In this document: positions 54,353-62,277 of the stretch, one piece after another
Layout: each line of letters begins with the position of its first letter
How positions within the stretch are numbered: the stretch's first letter is position 1
DNA from: an uncultured Alphaproteobacteria bacterium
Lineage (GTDB): Bacteria; Pseudomonadota; Alphaproteobacteria; Rhodobacterales; Rhodobacteraceae
Direction of reading: 5' to 3'
Assembly (NCBI GenBank): GCA_902619165.1
Contig: CACNDI010000005.1
Span: forward strand, 1 to 64,000
Length of the DNA stretch: 64,000 bases
Translations under genes and position numbers: made by a program
Notes under the pieces: generated by a model
Told to the model about the DNA's origin: nothing
Database searches by the model: none
Seen by the model: only the letters and a program-made list of their open reading frames with translations

Positions 54353-54820
54353 ATGAAAACCTTTTCAATAAAGCCCTCTGAGATACAGAAAAAGTGGATT
54401 TTAATAGACGCTGATGGCTTAGTTTTGGGGCGCTTGGCCGCTAAGGTTGCCACCATCCTCAGAGGAAAAGAAAAGCCTACATATACCCCTCATATGGACA
54501 TGGGCGATAACGTAATAGTTATAAACGCTGAGAAGGTATATTTAACAGGAAATAAAAGAGATACCAAAACATATTATTGGCACACAGGCTATCCAGGCGG
54601 AATTAAATCTAGAGTAGCTAGTGATATGTTGGAAGGTAAGTTTCCCGAAAGAGTTATTGAAAAAGCGGTAAAACGCATGCTGCCAGGTGGTCCTTTATCG
54701 AGAAAGCAAATGACAAATTTGAGAATTTATAAGGGGCAAAATCATCCGCACGAAGGTCAAAGCCCAGAGATATTAAGTATAGGGGATATTAATAAAAAAA
54801 ATACTAGGAGAGTTAGATAA
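54353..54820 (+). CDS. rplM: 50S ribosomal protein L13
   Basis: 155 aa. [36 protein letters not shown] and [15 protein letters not shown] motifs are standard. A TTGACC at 54301-54306 could be a -35, but no well-spaced -10 is clear. rpsI begins on the last base of its stop (TAATG), the usual coupled pair. Confidence 0.97.
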
Positions 54821-55275
54821 TGGCTGAAGTTGAAGAAGTAGTAAGCACGCCAACTAGTGAAAATAATGAAAAGCCGAAACTCGATAGCCTAGGAAGAGCT
54901 TATTCCACTGGCAAAAGGAAAGATGCTGTAGCTAGAGTATGGATAAAGAAAGGCAGCGGTAAAATAACGGTTAACAAAAAACCAGTGAATGAATATTTTG
55001 CTCGCCCAACCCTGCAAATGATAATTCAACAGGCATTTTCGGTTGCTAGTGTAGAAAATCAATTTGACGTAATGGCCACTGTAAAAGGCGGAGGTCTTTC
55101 CGGGCAAGCAGGCGCTGTGAGACATGGATTATCAAAAGCTCTTACTCTGTTTGATGGAGAATTACGGGGAGCGCTAAAGACCGCAGGATTTCTAACTAGG
55201 GACAGTAGAATAGTTGAACGTAAAAAGTATGGTAAGCCCAAAGCTAGAAGATCTTTTCAGTTTTCGAAGCGCTGA
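54820..55275 (+). CDS. rpsI: 30S ribosomal protein S9
   Basis: 151 aa with about 20 N-terminal extra residues. [37 protein letters not shown] and the C-terminal [16 protein letters not shown] reach the P-site tRNA. The last six codons (FQFSKR plus stop) are duplicated 6 kb downstream at 61259-61279, with changes only at third positions. The 3' end therefore seems to serve as an insertion site. Confidence 0.97.
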
Positions 55276-55398
55276 TTTTTTCGCGCTACCGTTTTTAATA
55301 AAATCGTTATAAAAAAAGTACTTAGTAGTTTTAAAGTGCTTTTTTGTGAGTAACATTCTCGATAATCGCTTTATTTTATTGAAGGCGTTTGCTACGAT
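55258..55398. repeat. Direct repeat A: rpsI 3' end, terminator and 37-bp core (left junction)
   Basis: Positions 55258-55387 align, with almost no gaps, to 61262-61392 (repeat C), including CAG/CAA codon, the stop, CTTAGTAG at 55321-55328 and GAAGGCG at 55381-55387. Positions 55319-55398 also match repeat B; 55362-55398 (37 bp) is identical to 57659-57695. This is the attL-like left edge of the island. Confidence 0.8.
55313..55345 (+). terminator. Intrinsic terminator of rplM-rpsI
   Basis: The stem 55313-55323 pairs with 55334-55344 (one G-U pair), the loop is AGTAGTTTTA, and the 3' side ends in a run of Ts. It sits inside direct repeat A, so diverged copies B and C carry remnants of this terminator. 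Confidence 0.7.
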
Positions 55399-55535
55399 GG
55401 GAAACATAAAATAAATCACAGAGTCGTTGCAGACTAACACAAAATGCGATTGCAGGAAGAGCGTTGTTATTTTGCCTAAAGATTGGTTTTATGCTTGAAT
55501 GCTCAAGGGTAATTTTTTAGAGTTATTATGAGGCA

Positions 55536-56360
55536 ATGACAAATAAAAACGATAAGGTTATTGAAGAATTTGGCGAAGAGTGGATAAAATTTGACTACGG
55601 AAATATTGATAAAGATAGCCTTAGAAAAAATTTTAAACAATACTTTAGCATTTTCCCTTGGGATTTATTGCCAAAAAACGCTGTTGGCTTTGATATGGGG
55701 TGTGGCACCGGTAGATGGGCACAGTTCGTTGCTCCAAAAGTAAAAACATTAAATTGCGTGGAGCCGAGTGATGCGATTGACGTTGCAAAGAAAAACTTAA
55801 CGGTCCATACGAATGTGAAATTCTATAAGGAAACCACCGAAAATTGTAGTTTACGTCCTCGCTCTCAAGACTTTGGTTATTGTCTAGGTGTTTTGCATCA
55901 TATTCCTAATACACAAAAAGCACTTGAAGACTGCACAAAATTACTGAAACCCGGAGCCCCGATATTACTTTACCTATATTATAATTTTGAAAATAAACCA
56001 ATTTGGTTTAAGTCTATCTGGAAGCTAAGTGACTATATCCGGCGAATTGTTTCTATCTCTCCAAAGGCTATTAAACATCCTATATCATCTGTAATTGCGT
56101 TATTAATATATTTTCCAATCAGTCGATTAGCTTACGTATTTGAAAAAATGGGATTTAACGTAGAAAATATTCCTCTTTCCGATTATAGAGCGAAGCCCTT
56201 TTACCAATGCAAAAATGATGCGCTTGATAGATTTGGAACAAGGCTCGAGCAAAGATTTAGTAAGTCACAAATAACAGAAATGTTAATGAAAGCTGACTGT
56301 AAGAACGTCGAATTTTCAGCAGCTACACCCTATTGGTGCTGTATTGCGTTTAAAAAATAA
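55536..56360 (+). CDS. Class I SAM-dependent methyltransferase
   Basis: 274 aa. Motif I is FDMGCGTGRWAQF near residue 52, with an acidic motif II in CVEPSD and GVLHHIPNTQKALE near residue 125. A hydrophobic stretch near 185-200 (SSVIALLIYFPIS) suggests membrane contact, and the overall layout resembles methyltransferases of sugar or lipid-linked pathways. It is the first gene after repeat A. Substrate unknown. Confidence 0.8.
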   Translation: MTNKNDKVIEEFGEEWIKFDYGNIDKDSLRKNFKQYFSIFPWDLLPKNAVGFDMGCGTGRWAQFVAPKVKTLNCVEPSDAIDVAKKNLTVHTNVKFYKETTENCSLRPRSQDFGYCLGVLHHIPNTQKALEDCTKLLKPGAPILLYLYYNFENKPIWFKSIWKLSDYIRRIVSISPKAIKHPISSVIALLIYFPISRLAYVFEKMGFNVENIPLSDYRAKPFYQCKNDALDRFGTRLEQRFSKSQITEMLMKADCKNVEFSAATPYWCCIAFKK

Positions 56361-56438
56361 TTAGTAACATGTGCAGGTGCTCAGCATATTAAGTCCTGTA
56401 TTCCAGTAATAACACGGTATACAAAAAACATGCAGTAA

Positions 56439-56633
56439 ATGGTTATTAACACACCACAAAGTCCAACAAAACAAAAAGTAGAGCAAAGCTTATATTACTG
56501 GTGGGGGTATGCATTAACTCTAAATACTTGCTACACTAATTTATGTGCAAAAGTACAAGCTGAAAAAAATGCTAATAACGGTAAAGGCATGTACAAAGTT
56601 TATAACGACTTTGGTGATGTAAGATATGAATAA
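56439..56633 (+). CDS. Hypothetical 64-aa protein in the island
   Basis: The frame begins MVINTPQSPTKQKVE and is rich in aromatic and polar residues (YYWWGYALTLNTCY). No family is recognised. The ribosome site is weak, and the 3' end touches a decayed phage-type gene, so it may be a chance or decayed frame. Confidence 0.3.
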   Translation: MVINTPQSPTKQKVEQSLYYWWGYALTLNTCYTNLCAKVQAEKNANNGKGMYKVYNDFGDVRYE

Positions 56634-56807
56634 TGCGATGGATGCCTCTAAAGCCGCCAGCAGCGTTCTGACAGCCGTCATTGAGGGTGAACTAACTCTC
56701 CGATTGAAGGAAAACGTGTTATGGGGCTTATCGATAGTTACAGACGCACTCTGGAACTAACTGAGATAGAAGAGCGTTTGAGGGCGTCGGAGAGTAGTAA
56801 TGAGTAA
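56626..56807 (+). pseudogene. DUF5681-like (phage/mobile-element) gene remnant, frameshifted
   Basis: Frame one reads SKAASSVLTAVIEGELT; after a frame change near 56695-56700 the next frame reads PIEGKRVMGLIDSYRRTLE and on to ERLRAS, ending at TAA 56805-56807. Joined, this matches, from memory, the C-terminal pattern of DUF5681 proteins (GELTPxEA then a YxRTLExTExExRLxxLE-like helix), which occur in prophages and mobile elements. The N-terminal part is missing. GC is about 50%, well above the neighbours, a sign of transfer. Confidence 0.6.
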
Positions 56808-57386
56808 ACAGCAAGGTTTAAAAAGCACCAATCTAACAAAAATATTTATCTCTAGTGAAAATGAATTGTGGGAGTGGTTAGATGTGAACCACGTATCTGA
56901 ACAATCATTTCTATTAGTCACTCAGAAAAAAACAAATACAGAAAAATATGTAATTCGCAATGTCGTGTTGGACGCATTATTAGCCTATGGCTCGATTGAT
57001 GGACGGCGTTATGCATTGGACACAGACAGGACGATGCAGCTTATCTGCAAACGAAAACAGAAGGATTGGACAGATACTTACAGAAAAAGGGTTGAAAAGT
57101 TAATTGCAGAAGGAAAACTAAAAAAAGCGGGATTTGAGGCTATGAATCTAGCAAACATGGGACATGGCTAGCCAATCAAAACGTAGACAATTTAGAAGCA
57201 CCAACTGCTCTTCTTGATGCTTTGGATATGAAAACAGGCTTAGCTTGGTGGCAATCAGCAGCCCCTTCTTACCAAAGAAACGTTTAACGTTGGCTAAACT
57301 TAGCAAAAACCTATAAAACAAGGCTAAAACGAATTAATGAAATCGCAAACGCATGTCATAATGGTCAAAAAATAAAAAATCTATAA
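56800..57386 (+). pseudogene. YdeI/OmpD-associated (bacteriocin-protection) family pseudogene
   Basis: An intact 123-aa front part (56800-57171) has LLAYGSIDGRRYALD, DRTMQLICKRKQKDWTDTY and RVEKLIAEGKLKKAGFEA, which are YdeI-family motifs. The expected C-terminal half continues in another frame from about 57180 (LLDALDMKTGLAWWQSAAPS) and past an in-frame TAA at NV-stop-RWLNLAKTYKTR to 57386. So there is one frameshift and one stop in a gene that should be about 190 aa. The truncated front part could still be translated. Confidence 0.75.
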
Positions 57387-57438
57387 TTTTGAATACTGCT
57401 ATGGAAACTAAGCGAGAAAATAAGTTGGAGGCAGTAGC

Positions 57439-57612
57439 ATGAGTAACTTTAATGTAGATAAAATTTTAAAAGAACTAGCTGAAGAAAGAATGCAACTAAG
57501 CAAACATTCAATTAGCAACAGCGAGTGTATGAGCATAAATGATGATAACGCTGACTTTGATGAAGCAGTTTTAAATGAAACACTTAGTAAACTATATAAA
57601 ACAATTACTTAG
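57439..57612 (+). CDS. Small acidic 57-aa protein ending in repeat B
   Basis: An ATG at 57439 follows a strong GGAGG with 7-8 nt spacing. The protein begins MSNFNVDKILKELAEER and looks helical and charged. No family is recognised. Its stop TAG (57610-57612) lies within the CTTAGTAG of repeat B, so this repeat copy provides its terminator region, as repeat A does for rpsI. Confidence 0.5.
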   Translation: MSNFNVDKILKELAEERMQLSKHSISNSECMSINDDNADFDEAVLNETLSKLYKTIT

Positions 57613-57716
57613 TAGTTTTTAGTGCTTTTTTTGAATGCATGTTTGATGCACGTTTTTAATAATCGCTTTATTTTATTGAAGGCGTTTGCTACGATAATGC
57701 ACGTTTGATGCACGTT
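57606..57716. repeat. Repeat B: internal copy with flanking 20-bp repeats
   Basis: TACTTAGTAGTTTT at 57606-57619 and the 37 bp at 57659-57695 are identical to repeat A. Between and after them lie two 20-bp direct repeats (57635-57654 and 57697-57716) that differ at one position and bracket the core. The rpsI coding end is absent. The rest of the gap 57613-57828 holds nothing else recognisable. Confidence 0.75.
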
Positions 57717-57828
57717 ATCTTTTCAGATTCAAAAAAATGCATCTGCTTTTGTGTTCGAAGATTTAACTTGGTCGCTTCCATGGTAATATGAAGTCATGAA
57801 ACTCGGCACATATATGGAAAGATAAGGG

Positions 57829-58131
57829 ATGAAGCATTTTATATGCACTCACATATTTCATTCAGAGGAAACTAAGAAAGCGTATTTTAAAGATAATAAA
57901 GATATTACCTCTAAAGAGTGGTTTGCATCAGTTGAGGGAGAAAAAGTAAAGTGTATCCAGCATTGGCTAGGGGATCAGGATTTTTGGTTTTGTCATTGGA
58001 TCGCTGAGAGTGAAAATCAAATACACGAAAAGCTTGAAGCCGTAGGGGCCGATAAACTATTTCTTACTATGGCACAAGAGATGAGTGTTTATGCAACTTC
58101 GGATGTACCAGACAAAAAGCTTTATAGTTAA
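57829..58131 (+). CDS. Hypothetical 100-aa protein, possible DUF4242-like ferredoxin-fold
   Basis: An ATG with AAGGG close upstream. The sequence has an early HIFHSEETKKAYF stretch, a central CIQHWLGDQDFWFCHWIAE with His/Cys/Trp, and a short C-terminal helix. Length and the alternating beta/alpha pattern fit small alpha-beta barrel proteins; the family assignment is only a guess. It is the first gene after repeat B. Confidence 0.5.
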   Translation: MKHFICTHIFHSEETKKAYFKDNKDITSKEWFASVEGEKVKCIQHWLGDQDFWFCHWIAESENQIHEKLEAVGADKLFLTMAQEMSVYATSDVPDKKLYS

Positions 58132-58387
58132 CATTGATGCCAGTGAGAAAAACAGAAATGTGAAAGTTTTTTTTTTCAGAATTATGTCTTTTACTTCTAG
58201 TCAAAATCCAATTCAAAAGCTTGTGACAAAAACAACTGAAAACGAGAAAGCCAAAAGCCATTGAGTTAATCATCACTTGACGATGAAAAGTGTACGCATA
58301 AAAGCTAAGAAGTACGAACATCACTGCGAATTCTCCCCCTATTATCCATACCGTTACAAACGCAACCCGAAAAAATATTATTATCAA

Positions 58388-58764
58388 TCTGTCCACTATC
58401 GAGCCGTCTCGGTGTTTTACTTTTATCATTTCTCGCCAAACTTTTTTATCTTTCTTTAAATTGACATCAATAAACTCATTATATCTCTCACTTGCCGTAT
58501 ATGTTCCCCAATCACCTTTCATTGGATGAGAAAAATAAAGAAATCTTCTTTATCAAATATCTATTTTCCATCTATAAGTTCGAAACCTCTTGTTTTATCA
58601 TCTATTGAGCGTTGGTTCATTTTTTCTTTGTTCAGTACGGCAAGCTCATCGATACACATATAGTCTTCATGCATAACCTCATCCATCAAGTCCCAGTCTC
58701 GAGTTTCGCAATATTTTACAAAAATTTCGAAGCCTGTCATTTTGCTGTATTTTGTTTCAAACAA
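58388..58764 (-). pseudogene. SnoaL/NTF2-like protein, decayed (copy 1)
   Basis: The first part starts at ATG 58764: ETKYSKMTGFEIFVKY, then RDWDLMDEVMHEDYM, ending in a stop at 58561. The C-terminal half continues in other frames (KGDWGTYTASERYNEF, KVWREMIKVKHRDG) to about 58388. The order fits a SnoaL/NTF2-like cone fold of about 125 aa broken by a stop and a frameshift. A related decayed copy lies immediately upstream at 58834-59184. A long minus-strand frame from 58522 to 58067 is mostly out-of-gene read-through. Confidence 0.55.
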
Positions 58765-58833
58765 CAGTTCTTAATTAGACAGCACTTAACCTCTAAATCA
58801 TGCAAAAACGAGATGTGAGAAGTAATCTTTTCA

Positions 58834-59184
58834 TTAAACAATTTCTCTTTCGTTGCTTACTTCTCTCCAGATTTTATCCGCTCTCCATAGTTGAACTTGA
58901 GTTATTAAATACTTTTTGCCCTAAGTTATCGTTTCGTGTTCTAGAGCCATCATATTTCCATTTTCATATAGGAGCGTAATTTGTGTAGGATATAAATTGA
59001 GAGCAAGTAATTCTTTAACCATCTCAATCGCTTCCTCTCGCGTTTTCATTGTGTAGTCTTGTGCATACATGAATTCATCATGTAATAGCTAATGTATCCA
59101 ATCAATATCCCGTTTTATTGCAAAGGTGTTATAGATTTCAAACCTCGAAAGTTTGCCATACTTTGTATCTATTAAACTCGCCAT
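58834..59184 (-). pseudogene. SnoaL/NTF2-like protein, decayed (copy 2)
   Basis: From ATG 59184 a single frame of 116 codons is recognisable, with in-frame TAG codons after DIDWIH and after EHETIT. It reads IDTKYGKLSRFEIYN, LLHDEFMYAQDYTM and KIWREVSNEREI, and aligns with copy 1 (TKY-K--FEI, RD-D, H-D/E-Y/F-M, WRE). The two are a tandem paralogous pair, both inactivated. Function unknown. Confidence 0.55.
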
Positions 59185-59277
59185 TTAAAAACCTTCTTAC
59201 AACACATTTATAAAGTCCAGTTACTGAGCATCTACTTAAAACTGGACATGAGGAATTCTCTGTGGGATTTTTATTTT

Positions 59278-59778
59278 ATGCTACTCCAAACCAACCGACT
59301 AATCATCAAACACTTCAAAGATAGTGATATTTCAGATTGGGCAAAAATAGAGAGTGATGCTGACGTCAGACGCTTTGTTGATGGGAAAGTACTCTCTTTA
59401 AAAGAGGCTAGTGAATATGTAAAAATGAATATTCGACAATATCAAACACATGGCTACGGAAGATATGCAGTTCGATTAAAAGAAAACAGAAAACTTATTG
59501 GTATGTGTGGCTTTTTAAATGAACCGTATGGAATTGATTTTGGTTATCGCTACTCTAAAGATAGCTGGGGGCAAGGCTTGGGGTTCGAAGCGGCAAAAAA
59601 AGTATTTGAACATGGCTATTCAGAATTAAGATTAGAGAAGGTACTCGGGCTGACTGCAGAGCAGAATTTAGGTTCTATCCGAATTCTTGAAAAATTAGGT
59701 TTCAAGTTTGAAGAGAAATTTTTATTCAATGATGTAAAAGCCCTAAGGTACTCATTTACAAGAAACGAAATTCAATGA
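59278..59778 (+). CDS. GNAT-family N-acetyltransferase (RimJ/RimL-like)
   Basis: 166 aa from the ATG at 59278 (an upstream ATG at 59248 adds 10 residues). LLQTNRLIIKHFKDSDISDW at the start, GYRYSKDSWGQGLGFEAAK (acetyl-CoA pyrophosphate loop, Q/RxxGxG/A-like) and LTAEQNLGSIRILEKLGFK are typical of ribosomal-protein-type acetyltransferases. Intact in an otherwise decayed stretch. Substrate unknown. Confidence 0.85.
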   Translation: MLLQTNRLIIKHFKDSDISDWAKIESDADVRRFVDGKVLSLKEASEYVKMNIRQYQTHGYGRYAVRLKENRKLIGMCGFLNEPYGIDFGYRYSKDSWGQGLGFEAAKKVFEHGYSELRLEKVLGLTAEQNLGSIRILEKLGFKFEEKFLFNDVKALRYSFTRNEIQ

Positions 59779-59928
59779 GTAAATCTAACAATCTATTTTT
59801 AGAGTTTAGTGTTAGACGATGACTGATTGCATGCTTGTTTACCTGTTCACTGATATAAAAATTTGGAAATTAAGCTCAAGAAAAAATTACGTCAAAGTAT
59901 AAAATTGGGAAACATGTGAACAAATTTA

Positions 59929-60060
59929 CTACTCGTCTATATCTTCTGTTTTTTTCTTCTTATGCATTTCTTTTACTATAAGAGTCGCTATGACGCCGGC
60001 TCCAAAAGCACCAAGTATTGTCAGTTTTAAAATCTTTAATTTAACTAATGTATGTATCAT
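59929..60060 (-). CDS. Possible 43-aa membrane peptide
   Basis: A minus-strand ATG at 60060 gives a 43-residue frame. A hydrophobic segment with LGAFGAGVIATLIV is followed by a lysine-rich, then acidic tail. No clear ribosome site. Apart from this frame, the gap 59779-60404 holds only AT-rich sequence with small dyads. Confidence 0.3.
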   Translation of the reverse strand: MIHTLVKLKILKLTILGAFGAGVIATLIVKEMHKKKKTEDIDE

Positions 60061-60404
60061 GAAAGATAAATAGTTTGAAAAAACATATGTTCAATTTTAA
60101 AGTTTCTTTTCGTACCGTATCTCTATTTTGCTCCATTTTTCTTCCTTTTTTTATAGGTAATGCTACTAAGGTGATATGCTATGGAAGCTCTTAAATTCAG
60201 ATGAAGCTAAAGATGCTTTTGCAAGATTTCTGGGTAAAAAATCTGCATAATTTTTACAAAAGAAAACTCGAAAAATATTAGAAAATATTTTACTTGCTTC
60301 AGGTTTTGAGCAGTTGATTCTAATATATGTATTGCTGACTTAGCTATTTGCAGAAGTATGGGGTGGTTATAGACTTAAGAATGATGTAAATTGACTTAGA
60401 GAAA

Positions 60405-60704
60405 GTGAAAAATAAATTGAGCATCACAAGAACAGATATTTTTAACTTTAAGTCCAGAACAGAATGTGACAAGTACATTGCAAGCCATAAAGAATTTATG
60501 CAGACCTTAGAAGTTGAAGGGATACAGGAGATACATTGGGTACGCGCGACCCCAGAATCATTATTGATTTTTTCTATTCTAAAATCAAAGGAGCAAGCGG
60601 ATGCCATAAAAGGAATAGCAAATAAGTGGAGAGAACAGCACGACTTTGATATTCATGATACGCTTGTCTTTGATGGTGAATTAATAGATTCATTTAGAAA
60701 CTAG
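60405..60704 (+). CDS. Hypothetical 99-aa protein (tandem family, copy 1)
   Basis: The start is GTG 60405 or TTG 60417. The protein alternates strands and helices (DIFNFKSRTECDKYIASH, IQEIHWVRATPESLLIF, WREQHDFDIHDTLVFDGEL) in a way that suggests a dimeric alpha-beta barrel. No named family is recognised. A diverged and frameshifted second copy follows 14 bp later. Confidence 0.6.
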   Translation: MKNKLSITRTDIFNFKSRTECDKYIASHKEFMQTLEVEGIQEIHWVRATPESLLIFSILKSKEQADAIKGIANKWREQHDFDIHDTLVFDGELIDSFRN

Positions 60705-60718
60705 CTTAGGGGGCAAAG

Positions 60719-61011
60719 CTGAGTATTACAGTAACGAATATTTTTAACTTTAAGTCACAAACAGAATGTGAAAAATATATTTCTAGTCACAGAGATTTTA
60801 TTAAATCTTTAAAGTTTGAAGTAGAAGGAATTCAAGAAATCCATCGGGTAAGAGCTACACCTGTCTCTGTATTAACTTTTGCTATTGTGGATACAAAAAA
60901 AACTTTGAGACAATTAGTATCAAAGCAAATCAATGGAGAGAAAAATTTGCATTTGATATTCATGATATGCTCGTATTTGATGGTGATTTAACTGAGTCAG
61001 TAAGAAGGTAG
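60719..61011 (+). pseudogene. Hypothetical protein (tandem family, copy 2), frameshifted at an A8 run
   Basis: It starts LSIT (CTG at 60719 after AGGGGG; copy 1 has TTG at the matching place) and follows copy 1 closely (NIFNFKSQTECEKYISSH, VEGIQEIHRVRATP). At eight As (60895-60902) the frame is lost. The neighbouring frame continues with KANQWREKFAFDIHDMLVF to TAG at 61009-61011, aligning with the end of copy 1. One extra A would restore it. A rare CTG start or a lost start codon is a second defect. Confidence 0.65.
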
Positions 61012-61018
61012 CGGCAAA

Positions 61019-61183
61019 ATGGGATTAATGTCAGATAAAGTTAACTCATTCATTGTTCATATTCTTAGTAGGTACAATCTGTTTGTAGATATGATAAACG
61101 AGTACTGTAACGTAGGCATAAAACGGGCAGAAATGGGCGTAACCCACTTTTTTTTAAAAAAGTTGAAAATAAATCATGTTTAA
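61019..61183 (+). CDS. Hypothetical 54-aa protein
   Basis: An ATG at 61019 gives 54 residues starting MGLMSDKVNSFIVHI and ending THFFLKKLKINHV. It follows the tandem pair by 7 bp. Hydrophobic and helical; no family is recognised. An AAGG lies about 10 nt upstream, so the start is only moderately supported. Confidence 0.35.
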   Translation: MGLMSDKVNSFIVHILSRYNLFVDMINEYCNVGIKRAEMGVTHFFLKKLKINHV

Positions 61184-61261
61184 GCGACACGTGTCAAGAT
61201 ATGATGCATGTTTTAAAATTGTTCTTTAAATATTAATGGAATCAACAACTTGCAGTTGTTT

Positions 61262-61392
61262 CAATTTTCAAAGCGATGATTTTTTAGTTCTACATTTTAA
61301 AAAAATACACATTAAACAATTGCTTAGTAGTTTTTAAGTGATGTTTCTAGAAAGTCACATTTTCTAAATGCGCTTTATCTTATTGCATGGCG
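61262..61392. repeat. Direct repeat C: diverged copy of rpsI end plus terminator (right junction)
   Basis: The six codons before and including TGA (61259-61279) read TTT CAA TTT TCA AAG CGA TGA, which is FQFSKR-stop, the same peptide as the end of rpsI with all three differences silent. CTTAGTAG (61323-61330) and the GCGCTTTAT/TTATTG region follow at the same distances as in repeat A. This is the attR-like right edge. No gene is seen in the remaining gap to 61599. Confidence 0.8.
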
Positions 61393-61599: not shown

Positions 61600-62277
61600 A
61601 TGGAAGAGATAAAACTGTCAAAAAAAGGAAACGCCTTGCTAAAATTGTACGAAGAAATGGCAGCAAAAGGCGTAGATAGGGTAGATGGAACGAGAAAAGA
61701 AAAAGTCTATAATGATTTTCAACTAAGGAAATTTAGGCATATATGCAAACATCAAATCTCTAATGATAAAATAAAAACTGTTTTAGATTACGGTGGAGGA
61801 GGCTCAGATTGGGACGCTCCTGGGTTTGACCCAGGAACAAAACAGTCTGCAAAGCAGTTTTTCCAAATACAGAGCGTGCATACCTTTGAACCTGCAAGAG
61901 GTTTAATGGAAAAAAAGAAAGCTGACTGTGTGGTGTGTATGGATGTCCTCGAGCATATTTTTATTGAGGATATTCCAAAAGTTGTAAGCGAATTGTTTTC
62001 TCTTTCAAAAAAATTGCTAGTTGTTAATGTGGCATGTTATAAAGCCGCCGCTTTACTTCCAAATGGAGAAAATGCTCATATTACTGTTAGAGGTGCCGAC
62101 TGGTGGAAGGGAGTTTTCGATGTAATTTCAAGTAATTATAAAGATATTGAAGTATTTTTAATCTGTTCAAACACTTTTTCCTCAGGAGTAATTTTCAAAA
62201 GTTTCAAGTTTGGTGATTGGGCGTTAACGGAGGGGTATACAACCAACATGAGTTTTCAAACTTTTCAACCAAGCTGA
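61600..62277 (+). CDS. Class I SAM-dependent methyltransferase domain protein
   Basis: 225 aa. The motif VLDYGGGGSDW (near residue 64) is a variant SAM-binding loop, with VCMDVLEHIFIEDIPK near residue 111 as the post-I/IV region. AGGGAAG precedes the ATG. It is the first gene right of repeat C and is not similar to the methyltransferase after repeat A. Substrate unknown. Confidence 0.75.
   Translation: MEEIKLSKKGNALLKLYEEMAAKGVDRVDGTRKEKVYNDFQLRKFRHICKHQISNDKIKTVLDYGGGGSDWDAPGFDPGTKQSAKQFFQIQSVHTFEPARGLMEKKKADCVVCMDVLEHIFIEDIPKVVSELFSLSKKLLVVNVACYKAAALLPNGENAHITVRGADWWKGVFDVISSNYKDIEVFLICSNTFSSGVIFKSFKFGDWALTEGYTTNMSFQTFQPS

Follow-up and report, generated by a model that had tools for sequence, protein, structure and literature searches.

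Why does the 3′ end of rpsI, which encodes ribosomal protein S9, recur some 6 kb downstream of that gene in an uncultured alphaproteobacterium of the Rhodobacteraceae? The window, that is, the whole 64,000-nucleotide stretch analysed here (assembly GCA_902619165.1, contig CACNDI010000005.1, positions 1 to 64,000 of the forward strand), had been annotated initially as carrying an island bounded by duplicated rpsI ends. Our answer, to which we assign a probability of about 0.88, is that small integrative elements were inserted here one behind another by a tyrosine integrase with the rpsI 3′ end as its recognition site, and that the resulting tandem array has since decayed. The evidence consists of the repeats, the units they belong to and the arms of these units, an integrase next to rpsI in relatives, elements elsewhere that keep both ends, and the turnover of gene content behind rpsI.

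Repeated rpsI ends in the window

In the window rpsI is intact (54820..55275, + strand, as are all units described below), and it is also present in 16 same-genus relatives. The two repeats reported at 55258-55387 and 61262-61392, said to run in step over about 130 bp, are real. Without gaps, in the register first proposed, 78 of 130 positions (60%) are identical, against a maximum of 66 and a mean of 38 in 120 other registers; with gaps allowed, 107 of 136 aligned positions are identical, and the local alignment score of 98 far exceeds the maximum of 43 obtained from 1000 first-order Markov resamples. A whole-genome search found the pair at 74% identity (E 4e-16) and showed a middle copy at 57595-57695 (77%, E 3e-17), the next best place reaching only E 0.097. 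The middle copy scored 100 against the left (null maximum 37) and 53 against the right (null maximum 35); what remains of it is the terminator region with the block that follows, its rpsI part being gone. Because a third copy lies between the outer repeats, the presumed 6-kb island is two modules: the repeats do bound the region, but what they bound is a tandem array of three units (55255-55450, 57595-57740 and 61259-61391), each all or part of a unit of about 210 bp.

The first unit begins with the last ~21 nucleotides of rpsI, TTTCAGTTTTCGAAGCGCTGA, which form the left attachment (att) core, attL (55255..55275). A terminator-like hairpin with a T run follows at 55307..55349 (-10.5 kcal/mol, z -3.7, none of 200 shuffles as good), and then the arm behind the core (P′ arm; 55347..55450), with a diverged repeat block and a TCGCTTTATTTTATTGAAGGCGTTTG block, ending close to ATGCGAT, the stretch that precedes the integrase gene (int) in relatives. 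This unit matched positions 1-207 of the 209-position nhmmer model (E 4e-54), a model that included the left copy among its 16 rows. The second unit (57595..57740), recognised by sequence search and profile, consists of a terminator remnant, for which 178 of 200 shuffles folded as well, and a P′ arm with GATGCACG-type repeats; its rpsI core is lost. The third unit opens with the right core, attR (61259..61279), and continues with a terminator-like hairpin (-6.1 kcal/mol, 10 of 200 shuffles as good) and a decayed P′ arm (61315..61391; model positions 4-147, E 2e-18).

The right copy reads TTTCAATTTTCAAAGCGATGA, that is, FQFSKR and a stop; it departs from rpsI in three codons, each time silently, as first described. 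As a sign of coding origin this silence holds for the right copy of the window but is not general: internal copies in two relatives, G018 and G002, change a residue or lose the frame, suggesting that internal copies act as attachment cores rather than as coding copies. Before the right core lies a second arm (P arm; 61203..61258) with one GATGCATG arm-type repeat and, at 61240-61252, AATCAACAACTTG, which fits the consensus for integration host factor (IHF). Having this P arm, the right copy is an attR-like end. The absence of an integrase between the repeats was confirmed. The genome of the window (G000) has five PF00589 matches, of which a single one, at C5:29673-30203, falls on this contig, and the integrase that stands next to rpsI in relatives had no match in that genome at E 0.001. 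The region is thus a decayed tandem array of integrase-less modules, and with the core of unit 2 lost and unit 3 degraded, the array as a whole is probably no longer mobile.

An integrase behind rpsI in relatives

Initially, the insertion had been thought to rebuild the end of rpsI, and a search for integrases at the same place in related islands supported this: the gene was intact in three same-genus genomes and present as fragments in four. Directly behind rpsI, G018, G014 and G004 encode an integrase of 486 aa (PF00589, 47.4 bits at a cut-off of 27.1). The G004 and G014 copies match the G018 integrase at 97-98% identity, even though their rplM-rpsI has just ~81% in common with that of G018. 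Fragments at the locus comprise residues 1-103 in G013, residues 446-486 in G007 and G002, residues 1-27 at a second unit of G007, and residues 1-35 at a contig end in G009. The predicted structure, of middling confidence (mean predicted local distance difference test score 73, predicted template modelling score 0.46), has a strand-rich N-terminal part ahead of the catalytic domain, and its fold matches include Cre, XerH, Tn1549 Int and lambda Int. Each of the three int elements also encodes one serine resolvase (cluster c14; PF00239 in one member). We conclude that the integrase kept by some relatives is probably the enzyme that inserts these DNA pieces.

The association extends beyond the genus. 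A family-level scan of 295 genomes found six that match the integrase at E 1e-20 or better, at seven places: rpsI stands just upstream in L071, L073 and L074, L072 begins at a contig end, and L075-L077 have no rpsI within the ~1.5 kb on each side. A profile scan of named genomes yielded 362 relatives, and the best 80 were retained, at 79 loci; in 30 of these loci rpsI precedes the integrase gene on the same strand by no more than 2 kb, and in 24 by no more than 300 nucleotides. Hosts of rpsI-adjacent integrases include Ruegeria, Yoonia, Marivivens, Phaeovulum, Shimia, Sulfitobacter, Pseudorhodobacter, Novosphingobium, a Caulobacteraceae metagenome-assembled genome (MAG) and an Azospirillum MAG, among others. 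In a tree of 78 integrases, five of them unlabelled, a single branch parts the 30 rpsI-adjacent rows from the 43 other rows (support 93; 0 of 500 shuffles as low). The DNA behind rpsI in these loci, compared by eye, shows ~45 nucleotides, a hairpin with a T run and paired repeats; most loci then have a TTGAC promoter-like stretch and further repeats ahead of int. In L089, L092, L095, L096 and L128 an extra 0.5-1.8 kb separates rpsI from int, which elsewhere follows immediately; this extra DNA has open reading frames (ORFs) of 211 aa in L128, 375 aa in L095 and 104 aa in L089.

A phage origin was considered and tentatively set aside. The integrase alone matched nothing in viral contigs. Its profile detected at least 12 distant loci there, 11 at 23-31% identity and one at 52% over a 48-residue piece, and the 26-base unit pattern had no match in the viral contigs. 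The best-matching entries among 50,697 phage records align to no more than 33% of the integrase, and eight of these records match part of the catalytic domain; one plasmid record of six matches over 81% at 26% identity. Eleven proteins compared with PHROGs gave integrases and unknown families; for one L108 protein the weak matches were a minor head protein (E 0.013) and, at E 0.018, a replication protein. Matches to rpsI itself occurred in 28 phage records.

Putative attachment sites with two arms

We built a profile of the unit from 16 aligned rpsI 3′ ends of the genus, that of the window included. The conserved unit, ~209 bp, runs from the last seven rpsI codons through a terminator-like hairpin, two direct repeats and an AT-rich block to two more repeats, and in many copies it closes with ATGCGATGG, where the integrase begins in three relatives. 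A DNA search placed it at 30 sites in 18 of 22 same-genus genomes; 29 of these lie at rpsI, and the last stands at the start of a contig (G021:C44:52-134; no rpsI was found in G021). Searched with the profile, nine genomes, including that of the window, have further copies in the same orientation, besides weak pieces. All profile matches lie on the rpsI strand, downstream of the gene and, on contigs that extend to the right flank, ahead of it. Two contigs, G001:C2 and G009:C29, stop at the repeated unit ~235-290 bp past rpsI; assemblies may thus be interrupted at this site and arrays be under-counted.

The second arm was found upstream of internal cores and never at the core of rpsI itself. 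In several internal units it consists of two repeats 11 bp apart, followed by ...AATCAATAACTTGCAG or a similar stretch before the core. The IHF consensus occurs within 45 nucleotides before the core in 7 of the 11 internal units that have a core (three of 14 internal units, their core lost, are left out of this count), compared with none of 17 rpsI-side cores; in total it occurs 17 times in 252,769 bp of searched strand. A strict search of 17 contexts returned 17 repeat pairs spaced 11 bp, all inside units or their P arms; none was in the window, where the repeats have diverged. The arm repeats take two forms, GAGTCACA and GATGCACG. On folding, the hairpins of the left copy of the window and of L085 beat all 200 shuffles. 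A core with two arms and an IHF-like site, in most internal core-bearing copies, is the layout of a lambda-type att site cut at its core.

Elements that keep both ends number eight, seven from 19 scanned loci and L108. A search for arm plus core, which found nothing on the reverse strand, located attR at five of the 19 loci and at one more after nine loci had been extended to ~30 kb; the attR of L128 came from a relaxed pattern without a reverse-strand control, and that of L108 was recognised by its core. Lengths range from 2.8 kb (L108) to 15.7 kb (L093/L172). All seven listed elements encode an integrase of ~495-505 aa, and five a second protein of ~190-210 aa, a tyrosine recombinase in L085 and, by eye, in the other four. 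A protein with an HxH motif is encoded by six of the seven, all of other genera (L085, L095, L089, L088, L128 and L108); four of the six were scanned and gave weak matches below cut-off, to PF23343 in three and PF03432 in one, and some are weakly like HUH replication (Rep) or relaxase proteins. Cargo includes a BstXI-type restriction enzyme and methylase in L085, a type ISP enzyme in L082 and, in an rpsI element of Ruegeria atlantica, a reverse transcriptase whose RVT_1 match stands at the cut-off (L095:12228-14045, - strand).

Turnover of gene content behind rpsI

We compared the stretch between rpsI and a right flank defined by the methyltransferase gene at 61600 or, failing that, by the enoyl-CoA hydratase gene. 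It measures 0.9-14.6 kb in the 13 of 17 contexts that reach this flank, and contexts share gene families in differing order and orientation. The block of the window is not common to its relatives: none of 16 aligns to more than 2322 of its 6325 bases, the contigs of G001, G009, G014 and G017 ending before the right flank. Among the cargo clusters of the genus arrays are GST, DSBA-like, cupin, GFA, ABM, FkbM, ECH and GNAT proteins, a SnoaL_3-like protein just under cut-off, and others without a family; Pfam matches of 20 of the genus cargo proteins included no relaxase.

One module allowed a closer comparison. G012 has the arrangement rpsI-unit-c10-c11, and in G018, G014 and G004 an int element of 7.4, 8.4 and 10.0 kb, respectively, lies between rpsI and the c10-c11 module. 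A comparison of G012 with G018 over eleven 100-column windows gave 97-100% identity inside the module, compared with 82.7% for rplM-rpsI, which indicates that the module was exchanged recently. This favours mobility of an integrase-less module.

Proposed mechanism and alternative explanations

We propose that the complete element would carry a lambda-type site, attP, with a P arm made up of a pair of short direct repeats and one IHF site, a core resembling the final rpsI codons, and a P′ arm in which a terminator, two repeats, a promoter region and two more repeats run into int. Recombination at the core, presumably catalysed by this integrase with IHF bound at the P arm, would integrate the element and restore the S9 reading frame; the inserted DNA would supply rpsI with a new, putatively active terminator, and the old rpsI end would be displaced downstream along with its neighbours. 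Because of this displacement, repeated insertion would stack elements, the newest probably nearest rpsI. Later deletion would have removed int, leaving the pieces seen in G013, G007 and G002. Modules of few, mainly metabolic genes would need mobilisation by an integrase in trans, and none of this kind was found in the genome of the window. A bolder proposal, which we hold tentatively and at slightly less than even odds, is cassette capture outside integrons: small integrase-less modules with lambda-type att units at their borders would be collected and shuffled at rpsI, between cells or genomes, by an integrase acting in trans, the arm dialects GAGTCACA and GATGCACG would be specificity types, and each insertion would renew the end and terminator of an essential ribosomal gene.

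Several points weigh against an array built by integration. Neither excision nor a circle nor transfer was observed. No wholly empty rpsI site was seen among same-genus genomes, the smallest locus (G008) retaining one GNAT gene, and 15 of 22 genomes have neither an intact integrase of this kind nor a piece of it in assembled sequence. No attR was obtained at 12 of the 19 scanned loci, of which five have less than 6 kb downstream and seven were searched over ~30 kb, and a strict core pattern (at most three mismatches) applied to 16 named genomes recovered the rpsI end and no attR; some attR sites came to light in the later arm-plus-core search, as the core of the element shares only ~10-13 bp outside the genus of the window. 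In the hairpin stretch of G018, 155 of 200 shuffles folded as well, the tested stretch beginning inside the expected stem. The integrase tree contains long branches; L097, among the 30 rpsI-adjacent loci, is titled a Nitrospinota MAG; and the profile query came mainly from rpsI-adjacent members with the best 80 of 362 kept, so that the rpsI-adjacent clade was favoured. Finally, the c10-c11 arms of G012 and G018 are just 84-92% identical, less alike than the genes between them, so the module borders have been reworked, probably by homologous recombination between units; such arms are compatible with more than one route.

These arms, the many genomes lacking the integrase and the coreless second unit of the window speak for a flexible island of the replacement type. 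In that reading the variable genes would be exchanged by homologous recombination, either between the conserved flanks (rplM-rpsI on one side, the enoyl-CoA hydratase gene on the other) or between the units, old scars that offer homology and nothing more. We consider this unlikely, given intact integrases directly behind rpsI in three genomes together with a clade of rpsI-adjacent integrases, elements elsewhere with both attL and attR, and conserved IHF-like sites and spaced arm repeats that homologous exchange does not need. Small modules shuffled between genomes, with repeats on one strand between them, also recall an integron-like array with attC sites and an integron integrase; yet the integrase scores 26.4 bits against a TIGR02249 cut-off of 265, the module borders are the ~210-bp unit with its rpsI 3′ end and arms, and cargo genes lie in both orientations, which together make an integron very improbable (no model-based search for attC sites was made). 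That the right and middle copies are degraded would suit a chance or segmental duplication of the rpsI end with no mobile element involved, but the local scores lie above every resample, the unit is present in 18 of 22 genomes, and internal copies have a second arm that the core of rpsI lacks, so that this explanation is scarcely credible.

Genes carried by the window modules

Module 1 (~55.5-57.6 kb) contains a methyltransferase gene and small ORFs. The former, at 55536..56360 (+), encodes a class I methyltransferase by Pfam match (Methyltransf_11). A 123-aa ORF at 56800..57171 (+), with no Pfam or NCBIfam match, seems to us to resemble the first part of a YdeI/OmpD-associated protein and is possibly a broken gene. 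Module 2 (~57.8-61.2 kb) holds small genes, among them one for a 100-aa protein of cluster c3 (57829..58131, +), which occurs in arrays of other genomes in either orientation, and a 67-aa ORF (58561..58764, -) without a family match that looks, by eye only, like a SnoaL-type remnant. The GNAT acetyltransferase (Acetyltransf_3; 59248..59778, +) belongs to one of the three largest cargo clusters in the arrays of relatives. A gene of ~99 aa (cluster c0) occurs in two tandem copies at 60405..61010 (+), of which the second is frameshifted; this cluster is widespread among those arrays.

Comparison with known systems

The locus suggests that streamlined bacteria may hold and exchange small sets of metabolic genes by using the end of an essential, conserved gene as a landing site, the incoming DNA repairing the gene and bringing a terminator. 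An integrase clade of several alphaproteobacterial groups tied to one target gene may serve as a marker for such islands, and movement of integrase-less modules by an integrase from elsewhere becomes testable. As some elements of other genera carry restriction-modification or reverse-transcriptase genes, the rpsI site is also worth searching for defence genes.

In lambda attP the core is flanked by arm-type sites and an IHF site. The present elements resemble lambda in this layout and in the predicted N-terminal part of the integrase before its catalytic domain; they differ in target and sequences, and in having a terminator-like hairpin inside the P′ arm. Tycheposons combine a tyrosine recombinase and cargo genes in marine streamlined hosts, and unlike the present elements they target tRNA genes.

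The nearest precedent contradicts the initial statement that no described element uses rpsI. IMESag-rpsI and other streptococcal integrative and conjugative or mobilizable elements use the rpsI 3′ end as their insertion site and are also found there in tandem (PMC5090054, PMC4701971, PMC5357655). As described there, they share with the present elements a tyrosine integrase (PF00589), the rpsI 3′ end as target and tandem accretion with other and decayed elements, but they belong to Firmicutes, and IMESag-rpsI encodes a relaxase and a mobilisation module; most modules of the genus studied here are integrase-less and carry mainly metabolic genes. The additive flexible genomic island fGI-2 of Ca. 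Methylopumilus, with its repeated tRNA-Lys 3′ ends, is alike in its variable size, in gene-3′-end repeats that mark insertions at one site, and in its streamlined aquatic hosts; its target is a tRNA gene, and the available sections of that report tie no integrase family or att arms to the repeats (PMC10872708). In the open-licence literature we found no paper on rpsI elements in alphaproteobacteria; papers brought up by wider searches on rpsI or S9 were mainly streptococcal, with Macrococcus and Enterococcus also represented, and one rhizobia paper uses rpsI as a tree marker. The use of rpsI as an insertion site is therefore not new, given the streptococcal precedent; as far as our searches reach, what is new is a largely alphaproteobacterial integrase clade, together with the small, integrase-less modules bounded by att sites.

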